From Piscinibacter caeni (GTDB taxonomy: Bacteria; Pseudomonadota; Gammaproteobacteria; Burkholderiales; Burkholderiaceae_C): a stretch of 47,755 bases of DNA. Below the pieces are notes generated by a model that worked only from the letters and a program-made list of their open reading frames with translations, made no database searches and was not told the origin of the DNA. A program made the translations under genes and the position numbers. Shown here piece by piece: positions 15,381 through 17,783 of this stretch; position 1 is the stretch's first letter; the number at the start of each line of letters is the position of its first letter. The DNA lies in contig QJOU01000074.1 in the NCBI GenBank assembly GCA_003265685.1, forward strand, positions 1-47,755. Reading direction: 5' to 3'.

Positions 15381-16529
15381 TCACATCGAGGCTTCGAGCA
15401 TCGCGCGGTAGTCCTCGCGCGTGGCCAGGCGCGGGTTGGTCTTGTGGCAGTGATCGGCCAGCGCGCCGTCGATGACGCGCTCGAACAGCTCCGGCGTCAC
15501 ACCCAGCGCGGCCAGGCCGCTGGGCAGCCCGAGGGCGGCGTTCCTCGCGCGGATCGCCTCGGCGATCGTGTCGCCGGCGTCGTCGCAGCCGGGCAGCCCC
15601 ATCGCATGCGCCAGGCGCGCCAGGCGGCGCTCCCGGATGATCGACTCGGCGCTCGCATTGAAGCGCACCACCGCCGGCAGGAACAGCGCGTTCAGCGTGC
15701 CGTGGTGCAGCTTCGGGTTCACGCCGCCCAGGCTGTGGCTGAGGCTGTGCACGCAGCCCAGGCCCTTCTGGAAGGCCATCGCGCCCTGCATGCTCGCGCT
15801 CATCATGTGCCAGCGCGCCTGGCGGTCGCCGCCGTCGCGCGTGGCGGCCTCGAGGTGGGCCCAGCCGCGCTCCAGGCCGTCGAGCGCGATGCCGTCGGCC
15901 GGTGGGTTGACGGCCGGCGCCATGAAGGTCTCCATGCAATGGGCGATCGCGTCCATGCCGGTGGCCGCGGTCAGCAGCGGCGGCAGGCCGAGCGTCAGCT
16001 CGGGGTCGCAGAGCGCCGCCTTGGGCAGCAGATGCCAGCTGTGGAAGCCGAGCTTGCGGCCGTCGTCGACGATCACGATCGCGCCGCGTGCCACCTCGCT
16101 GCCGGTGCCCGCGGTGGTGGGCACGGCGATCAGCGGCGCGACGCGCTCGGTGATCTTCGTGCTGCCGCCCTCGATGGTGGCGTAGCCGGCCAGCGGACCC
16201 TCGTGCGTGGCGGCGATCGCCACGCCCTTGGCGAGGTCGATGCTCGAGCCGCCGCCCACGGCCACCAGGCCGTCGCAGCGGTGCGCCTTGAACAGCTCGG
16301 TGGCCGCACGCACCGCCGCCTCGGTGGGGTTGGAGGGTGTCTGGTCGAACACCGCATAGGGCAGCTGCGCGAGCGGCTGCAGCGCCTGCGCCAGCACGCC
16401 GGCCGCCTTGACGCCGGCATCGCTGACGACCAGCGGACGCTTGATGCCGACACGCGCGCATTCCTGCGGCAGCAGGCGCACCGCGCCGAAGTCGAGCTGG
16501 ATCTGCGTGAGGTAGAGGATCAGGGCCAT
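15381..16529 (-). CDS. Iron-containing alcohol dehydrogenase
   Basis: Group III (Fe-dependent) alcohol dehydrogenase of 382 residues, normal for the family. The NAD-binding glycine motif GGGSSIDLAKGVA lies near residues 93-105. The first family signature spans PTTAGTGSEV, and the iron ligands lie in D-x3-H (GMDAIAHCMETF, about 196-207) and the HSLSHSLGG segment (about 264-272) with a later H in KLHHGTLNA. Substrate unknown; relatives act on primary alcohols, lactaldehyde, propanediol or maleylacetate. The ATG at 16529 lies only 17 bases from the palindromic element at 16547-16815, so that element must contain or border its promoter. A minus-strand TACACT (16538-16543) is a possible -10 but very close to the ATG. 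Confidence 0.88.
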   Translation of the reverse strand: MALILYLTQIQLDFGAVRLLPQECARVGIKRPLVVSDAGVKAAGVLAQALQPLAQLPYAVFDQTPSNPTEAAVRAATELFKAHRCDGLVAVGGGSSIDLAKGVAIAATHEGPLAGYATIEGGSTKITERVAPLIAVPTTAGTGSEVARGAIVIVDDGRKLGFHSWHLLPKAALCDPELTLGLPPLLTAATGMDAIAHCMETFMAPAVNPPADGIALDGLERGWAHLEAATRDGGDRQARWHMMSASMQGAMAFQKGLGCVHSLSHSLGGVNPKLHHGTLNALFLPAVVRFNASAESIIRERRLARLAHAMGLPGCDDAGDTIAEAIRARNAALGLPSGLAALGVTPELFERVIDGALADHCHKTNPRLATREDYRAMLEASM

Positions 16530-16546
16530 GGCGGGGCAGTGTAGTG

Positions 16547-16815
16547 AGAAGGTGCGAGAGAACCCAGCATGCCCGCGTTGCCCCCGGGAACGCGCCCAAT
16601 CGAGGCGCAAAGCACAGACGTGTCGGGTGACACGTCGAGCATTTGCAACGACGAGTGGGCGCGATCCCGGGGGCAACCCGTAGGGCCGGGGTACCCAAGG
16701 ACCCTGGGCCGCGTTGCGCCACTGGCCCAGACGGCCAGTCTGAGCGGCGTGCCGCGCCTTGCCCAGGGCCCTTGGCCACCCCGGCGCGGGCATGCTGGGT
16801 TCTCTCGCACCTTCT
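16547..16815. repeat. 269-bp palindromic element with 31-bp terminal inverted repeats (MITE-like)
   Basis: A perfect 31-bp inverted repeat bounds the element: 16547-16577 and 16785-16815. Inside are two further imperfect palindromes side by side. Arm 1 (16577-16677) pairs 16577-16598 with 16656-16677 at 21 of 22 positions, with an apical hairpin GACGTGTC / GACACGTC (16617-16636). Arm 2 (about 16687-16782) pairs GGGG..CCAAGG..CCTGGGC with GCCCAGG..CCTTGG..CCCC, with an apical hairpin ACTGGCC / GGCCAGT (16721-16739). As single-stranded DNA or RNA it would fold into a closed three-way junction. It encodes no credible protein. A 3-base GTG next to each end (16544-16546 is GTG, 16816-16818 is GTG) could be a target duplication but is too short to trust. 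It fills nearly all of the 312-bp gap between two divergent genes. Confidence 0.85.
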
Positions 16816-16841
16816 GTGCCTGTGGCAGACTGCGCGCCCCG

Positions 16842-17783
16842 ATGAACCCGCACGCCCACCTGCTGACCCCGCGCATGGCCGGCGTGCTCGAGCGCATCCG
16901 GCGCGCGAAGCGCCCGCCGTTCCACGCGCTCACCGTCGAACAGGCGCGCACCGCCTACGAGCTCGGTGCCGAGGTGCTGGACCTGCCGCGTGCGCCGCTG
17001 CACCGCGTCGACCGGCTCGAGCTGCCCGGCGCGGACGGCACGCTGCTCGCCGCGCGCCACTACCTGCCGGGCCCGGCACCCTGCGGCACCTTGCTGTACC
17101 TGCACGGCGGCGGCTTCACGATCGGCGGGCTCGCCACGCACGACAGCCTGTGCCGGCAGCTTGCGCTGCACAGCGGCGCGGGCGTGCTCTCGCTCGACTA
17201 CCGCCTCGCACCCGAACACCGCTTCCCCGCGGCCGTGGACGACACCTGGGCCGTGCTGCGCCGGCTCGCGCAGGGCGCGCTGCCGGGTGTGGACCCGCAG
17301 CGCCTGGCCATCGGCGGCGACAGCGCCGGCGGCACGCTGGCCGCCGTCGGCGCGCTGCTGGCGCGCGATGCCGGCCTGCCGCTGCGCGCGCAGCTGCTGA
17401 TCACGCCGGGCACCGCGGCGCAGGCCGACAGCGCCTCGCACCGCCTGTTCGCCAACGGCTTCCTGCTCGACGCGGCGACGATCGAGTGGTTCTTCGACCA
17501 CTACATCGACCGCGCGCAGCGCCACGACTGGCGCTTCGCGCCGCTCGAGGCGCCCGAGCTGGAGGGTGTCGCCGCGGCCGTCGTGATCCTGGCCGAATGC
17601 GACCCGGTGGTCGACGAGGGCCTGGCCTACGCCGACCGGCTGCGCGCCGCCGGCGTGCCGGTCGCGCTGGACCTGGTGCGCGGCGTCACGCACGATTTCA
17701 TCAAGATGGGGCGGGTGCTCGAGGAGGCCCGCGCCGCCCACGCCTTCGCCGGCGCGGCATTGAGGAGGGCCTTCGAGCCATGA
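16842..17783 (+). CDS. Alpha/beta hydrolase (HSL-type esterase)
   Basis: Hormone-sensitive-lipase-like carboxylesterase of 313 residues, cytoplasmic (no signal peptide). The oxyanion-hole motif HGGG is at 88-91. The nucleophile is S161 in GDSAGG, and the acid and base are probably D254 (AECDPVVDEG) and H284 (GVTHDF). Length and order match the Aes/Est family acting on short-chain esters. The ATG at 16842 lies 26 bases after the right end of the palindromic element. Its stop overlaps the start of the thioesterase-GNAT gene (ATGA), so the two are translationally coupled. Confidence 0.9.
   Translation: MNPHAHLLTPRMAGVLERIRRAKRPPFHALTVEQARTAYELGAEVLDLPRAPLHRVDRLELPGADGTLLAARHYLPGPAPCGTLLYLHGGGFTIGGLATHDSLCRQLALHSGAGVLSLDYRLAPEHRFPAAVDDTWAVLRRLAQGALPGVDPQRLAIGGDSAGGTLAAVGALLARDAGLPLRAQLLITPGTAAQADSASHRLFANGFLLDAATIEWFFDHYIDRAQRHDWRFAPLEAPELEGVAAAVVILAECDPVVDEGLAYADRLRAAGVPVALDLVRGVTHDFIKMGRVLEEARAAHAFAGAALRRAFEP

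Follow-up and report, generated by a model that had tools for sequence, protein, structure and literature searches.

A probable MITE of Piscinibacter caeni carries a two-armed folded module that recurs across Burkholderiales

Results

The stretch of DNA analysed as a whole, hereafter the window, comprises 47,755 nucleotides of Piscinibacter caeni (assembly GCA_003265685.1, contig QJOU01000074.1, positions 1 to 47,755). A 269-base palindrome at 16547 to 16815 lies between two divergent gene starts and not at a stop codon: an iron-containing alcohol dehydrogenase on the minus strand (15384..16529, Pfam PF00465) and an alpha/beta hydrolase on the plus strand (16842..17780, PF07859) both begin towards it. 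Complementarity between its terminal 31-nt arms (16547-16577 and 16785-16815) is 100%, in agreement with the position and the perfect inverted repeat given by an earlier, sequence-only reading of this DNA. We count the outermost A/T pair as part of the target triplet and accordingly take the element proper to be 16548..16814 (267 bp, plus strand), a two-armed element of the type inserted at TNA targets. The inverted repeat, an empty site in P. defluvii and the fact that 267 bp is the commonest length of two-armed TNA elements back this delimitation. The left copy of the target triplet is TGA (16545..16547), the right one has decayed to TGT (16815..16817), both read on the plus strand. The element is too small to hold a transposase gene; an open frame (16569-17783) crosses it and continues into the downstream hydrolase.

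The terminal inverted repeats form an outer stem, whose 5' strand (16548..16577, plus) has an IS5-like outer part and a lineage-specific inner part and whose 3' strand occupies 16785..16814 (minus). Within it, the arm covariance model R1 detects a left arm module at 16577..16675 (plus strand, 81.7 bits) and an inverted right one at 16687..16785 (minus strand, 83.1 bits). The left inner palindrome (16574-16602/16652-16680) is 90% complementary, and both arm cores bear an internal-loop motif that is also present in relatives, GAGGCGC...GCAACGA on the left (16601..16651, plus) and AAGGCGC...GCAACGC on the right (16711..16761, minus). The enclosed long palindromes reported before are thus found again as two quasi-palindromic arms. 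Folded as RNA, the 269 nucleotides reach −214.2 kcal/mol (z −17.8, with none of 200 shuffles equally good); folded as DNA, they give z −18.0. The arms are separated by a linker mini-hairpin, CCC-GTA-GGG (16677..16685), of a class also seen in relatives and forming two or three pairs in the folds. Because of this mini-hairpin a four-way drawing suits the junction better than a three-way one, which refines the closed fold proposed from the sequence.

Copies, empty site and target duplications

BLAST gave many matches to the element within the 6.87 Mb (310 contigs) of its own genome. Two-armed copies number at least 21, of which 17 were aligned near full length (about 269 bp) and four more were found with the arm model; the alignment covers 17 of 18 places, the omitted one (L024) being a zero-armed form. 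The palindrome is therefore not the single-copy sequence that would have spoken against a mobile family. Exact pattern matches in named records numbered 13, nine from P. defluvii SH-1 (two assemblies), three from other Piscinibacter and one from an unclassed Pseudomonadota bin. P. defluvii has a short spacer between the same two gene starts and there provides an empty site, GTAGTGAGGCTGTGG, to be compared with GTAGTGA-(267 bp)-TGTGCCTGTGG in the window. The element is likewise missing there from five more species, so that six relatives in all have no copy at this locus, the one locus that the comparison covers. In two of these five (orthologous loci L174 and L176, both of the same genus), the dehydrogenase/hydrolase spacer holds another insertion, which looks palindromic by eye.

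From 198 candidates in the fetched loci, an inverted-repeat filter kept 142 elements. The target duplication was intact in 86 of these, 43 with a 3-bp TNA and 43 with a 2-bp TA duplication, and was not intact in the other 56. Lengths cluster at 159 bp for one-armed elements and at 266 or 267 bp for two-armed ones: TNA elements were most often 159 (20/43) or 267 bp long (14/43), TA elements 266 bp (20/43). A few were much longer, up to 421 bp. In oversized elements of 296, 323 and 344 bp (L042, L107 and L184), one arm was extended or carried extra sequence. Zero-armed forms, made of the outer stem and a few bases, were seen at L024:4840-4901, L091 near 5336, L093 near 3046 and L185:895-922, as well as in C31 and C144, and look as though their arms had been deleted. 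Further long palindromes of other sequence, with arms of 57 and 38 nt, lie within 3.5 kb of the L107 element (L107:1632-1842 and L107:2866-2953, genome G012). The 269-bp query had no match among plasmids and phages; when three other elements were compared with plasmids, two had none and the third gave three weak, unannotated matches in Variovorax and Cupriavidus.

Small size (159, 266/267 bp), terminal inverted repeats (31/31 bp in the window and likewise present in relatives), target duplications and dispersed copies are the attributes of a MITE. Taken with the empty site and with the ends that TA-type elements have in common with an IS5-family insertion sequence (see below), they support the view, one of several that the sequence-only reading had offered, that the window palindrome is a copy of such an element.

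Insertion sites and orientation

The stop codon of an open reading frame of at least 100 codons lay at the edge of 33 of the 43 TNA elements, as compared to 93 of 300 control CTNAG sites (p 1e-8). TA-type sites showed no such excess (16/22 against 37/52 CTAG controls; 36/43 in the larger set). Both control sets were drawn from the loci of the first, smaller element set, and the tests of stop codons and gene direction rest on reading-frame length and codon-position GC rather than on annotated genes.

The arm of one-armed TNA elements was opposite the TGA strand in 22 of 23 cases. Where a coding-like gene ended at the edge, the arm was opposite that gene in 18 of 18 cases; by reading-frame length alone, 21 were opposite, one was on the same strand and one was unclear. 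Two-armed TNA elements were oriented 12:3 (the 15 with a gene direction), whereas the 23 two-armed TA elements were unbiased (14:9), a contrast that sets two-armed TA against mostly one-armed TNA elements (only three TA elements were one-armed) and in which elements were labelled two-armed by means of a similarity graph, weak where members are distant. Since the one-armed TNA elements are biased and the two-armed TA elements are not, orientation seems to be set by the target, and the simplest reading of these sequences would be that target asymmetry determines the orientation of insertion. Selection at the RNA level, considered as a cause of the bias, was set back by the unbiased two-armed TA elements.

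Ends and a candidate IS5-family partner

TA-type ends, searched with TAGGGYCTGTTNRCRC in 12 genomes, gave matches in 11. In genomes G106 and G061, end pairs spanning 827 bp (flanking TAs counted) enclose a frameshifted transposase that scores above the NCBIfam IS5_3 (NF033580) cut-off in both; the G061 copy stops at a contig end. The sequence TAGGGCCTGTTAACAC stands at both ends of this 827-bp insertion sequence (IS) and of a two-armed element (L150) in the same G106 genome. The common end amounts to 16-18 nt including the TA, and the stem of the element continues to 30-31 bp with sequence of its own. The covariance model found no arm module in the G106 copy of the IS (L180). A third copy of this type, in G022, has kept one such end while the other has decayed. 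The same genome has four IS copies with GARCCTGT ends bordered by TAA, TTA or TCA on both sides; it is a complete and transposase-rich relative genome, with 20 Y1-type and 27 IS5_3 matches.

For the TNA type, E. coli IS5A starts with GGAAGGTGCGAA, similar to GAAGGTGCGAG in the window copy. The elements thus combine IS5-like ends with a TNA or a CTAG-type target, both of which are presumably filed under IS5 subgroups. A search of the own genome by end patterns and transposase families yielded no partner with the GAAGGTGYGAGAGAACCC ends of the window: candidates with GAAGGTG- and GGGCCTG-type ends were element ends, single ends or chance matches, and candidates from the transposase families were unrelated or partial transposases. 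No intact IS5_3 transposase was present either, one partial match (E 3e-7) lying below the cut-off. With regard to a cognate transposase with similar ends, for which a search had been suggested, the outcome is mixed: one was found for TA-type ends in G106 and G061, none for window-type ends in the own genome.

Elsewhere, the IS5_3 profile scored above its cut-off in five of 19 genomes searched and gave no match whatever in eight. G014 and G138 had 17 and 21 TA-type end matches yet no IS5_3 match, and PF01609 was absent from G003, G004, G012, G001, G010, G014, G024 and G028. Several genomes rich in elements thus have no IS5_3 match, and a partner is shown, by its end sequences, for TA-type ends in two genomes only. 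Two other candidates were dropped: CTGTTCACGGTG in L089 turned out to be a chance match within a transposase gene, and in L127 a one-armed element adjoins a PF01609 transposase instead of lying within it. L117:933-3366 (G011) is a 2.4-kb stretch in which a PF01609 transposase match lies between near-perfect inverted ends of 99 nt.

Pairing, loop letters and linker of the module

Model R1 was trained on 27 arms kept at less than 88% identity; cores whose length differed and matches that were probably coding were dropped. A further arm set (A3) held the best 150 of 173 matches, from 100 loci. Among 139 distinct arms, 88.7% of cells were paired, against 58.9% after shuffling, the apical helix being weaker (68.5% paired). 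Covariation reached 0.697 compared to 0.171 in shuffled arms and at most 0.191 when partners were slid. The covariation that had been named as a test for a structured RNA is hence strongly positive, and it does not separate RNA from single-stranded DNA. Pairing also holds in the outer stem, where sequences are unrelated between copies yet still complementary: 92% of positions were paired in 18 divergent two-armed elements (of 57) against 43% after shuffling, 86% against 38% in the same 18 beyond the IS-like part, and 84% against 56% in 11 one-armed elements (of 26).

The unpaired letters are nearly constant. The AGGCG and CAAC columns were invariant in 87 arms of less than 90% identity, these being regex-picked arms; the regex that chose the R1 training arms fixes AGGC and AACG, so that part of the invariance at these letters is built in. 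Among 56 distinct two-armed elements, which were included on a single regex match each, 51 had AGGCG and 46 had CAACG in both arms. Of the same 56, 47 had the linker CCC-GNA-GGG or the complementary form CCC-TNC-GGG (0.5% expected in random high-GC 40-mers). Loops of the GNA kind are known for high stability in DNA, those of the UNCG kind for high stability in RNA; since the two forms are complements here, the linker cannot tell which strand matters.

GU outnumbered AC mismatches by 155 to 58 over 185 arms, a figure that shared ancestry inflates, and by 49 to 31 among changes between nearest-neighbour arms, which is marginal (p 0.057). This excess may hint, weakly, at RNA or at a preference for one strand. 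GU and AC also differed in the outer stem when read along the strand of the gene (20 to 56), an asymmetry given no weight, as ancestry and orientation are common to the copies. Rfam had no match over the element at the gathering threshold, and matches at a permissive threshold were far below the cut-offs. Taken as sequence comparisons, the conserved features point to a DNA transposon in which a single strand is constrained in its folded form.

Range across Burkholderiales

The arm model matched 80 of 120 evenly drawn genomes of the same family (119 genera) and 65 of 150 genomes of the order under 36 family labels, a number counted by hand and including some labels with one weak match. Copy counts per genome are lower bounds, as 27-34 candidates per genome were scored. 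R1 proved specific: over 206,538 bases of 48 loci, no score fell between 17.3 and 38.6 bits, two matches at 38.6 and 39.4 bits came from G032 loci, and 50 kb of E. coli gave none. At three loci of other families the geometry was kept, with 263-268 bp within the duplications (counted by hand). To judge from these matches, one geometry, maintained within a few bases in most intact elements, recurs order-wide despite near-total sequence turnover.

Discussion

We consider it probable, at roughly 70%, that the palindrome is a MITE moved in trans by DDE transposases of the IS5 family and containing a conserved folded module. The transposase would recognise the outer end, about 14-16 bp, and insertion would take place at C-TNA-G with a 3-bp or at C-TA-G with a 2-bp duplication. 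The window copy is of the TNA type, and similarity of target and ends suggests that this type, too, is moved by IS5-type enzymes. The interior would consist of one or two mirrored hairpin arms, joined by the mini-hairpin if there are two, in which shape and length are kept while sequence turns over. The form in use is presumably a folded single strand, either RNA from read-out of a neighbouring gene or a DNA hairpin or cruciform, and the fold would most likely serve the spread or survival of the element itself via a putative factor that reads the AGGCG/CAAC internal loop. As TNA and CTAG targets are potential stop codons on one strand, many insertions would come to lie exactly on stop codons, and such sites would spare the gene. 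A bolder version, which we regard as possible but would not favour, sees an order-wide, mobile four-way-junction lineage in which the folded strand is the conserved unit, with mirrored loop sites, borrowed IS5-type ends and a putative fold-reading factor.

Palindromy might instead be kept by a DNA process alone, template switching or gene conversion between the arms, acting on ordinary MITEs with a functionless fold. Both strands are indeed palindromic, and G-U pairs make up only 3.5% of helix-1 cells (106/3055, 139 distinct arms), where RNA helices are expected to have a higher share; in the closest arm pairs (at least 95% identity), GU mismatches hardly outnumber AC mismatches (22 vs 18). 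Such a process does not, however, predict near-invariant unpaired letters, fixed lengths or a conserved linker hairpin, and the 155 to 58 excess of GU over AC, with the reservations on ancestry and on the recent-change test given above, runs against it as well. We therefore judge it unlikely. An equally doubtful proposal has the module as a structured RNA that benefits the host, for instance a mobile 3' UTR stabiliser or an RNase III substrate. The arm covariation, the many insertions directly after stop codons and the one-armed TNA arms opposite an edge-ending gene (18/18) would all suit this proposal. It is at odds with the window copy, which sits between divergent gene starts, with the absence of the copy at the tested locus from six relatives and with the lack of an Rfam match. 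Two-armed TA elements at symmetric CTAG-type targets are moreover unbiased with respect to the gene (14:9), and the orientation bias may therefore follow the TNA target.

RAYT-type enzymes read hairpins with conserved unpaired letters, and the arms resemble the substrates of such enzymes. It is nevertheless very improbable that the palindrome is of REP/REPIN type and owes its movement to a RAYT (Y1/HUH) transposase working on single-stranded hairpins: PF01797 was found in 58 of 80 genomes with the module and in 29 of 40 without it (odds ratio 1.0), no PF01797 gene is present in the own genome, and the element has terminal repeats and target duplications. The earlier judgement that this is not a REP element is borne out by this lack of association. 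REP/REPIN/BIME palindromes are GTAG/CGTC-tagged with units of 20-40 bp (PMC3733652); like the present element they are described there as extragenic palindromes in many copies that often touch stop codons, and unlike them the element has target duplications and no RAYT association. Five genus or motif terms were looked for in that paper without a match.

With the prokaryotic MITEs presented in the available text of a review (PMC10969869), including Correia, ERIC, MITEAba12 and QMITE2, the Piscinibacter element shares short length, terminal inverted repeats, target duplications, dispersal and a strong fold, some of them being located in 3' UTRs. Each example in that text has a range no wider than one or two families, in some cases a single genus or species, whereas the Piscinibacter-type geometry spans an order, and the element differs from the MITEs named there in the compensated turnover of its stems, in at least two IS5-type end classes (TNA, TA) and in its near-invariant loop letters. 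The 827-bp IS of G106 and G061 resembles the TA-type element of G106 in both ends and in the TA duplication; unlike the element, it carries a frameshifted transposase, shares only the terminal 16-18 nt and, in its G106 copy, has no arm module. Polaromonas is a genus that we take to belong to the same bacterial order as the host. MITEs have been reported in Polaromonas sp. JS666 (Mattes 2008, cited in PMC10969869) and may belong to this arm-module family. In the literature searched by titles, abstract openings and oligonucleotide text, with the Polaromonas report (Mattes 2008) outside the comparison, no description of this family was found.

Conclusions

MITEs are usually viewed as decaying leftovers of one insertion sequence. 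In the family described here, sequence turns over with compensation at constant geometry, as is characteristic of a folded nucleic acid with a function. The covariance model now allows the module to be annotated in genomes, and the question is raised as to what reads the AGGCG/CAAC loop in a family through which large hairpins of one kind have come to stand at numerous gene ends and in spacers.
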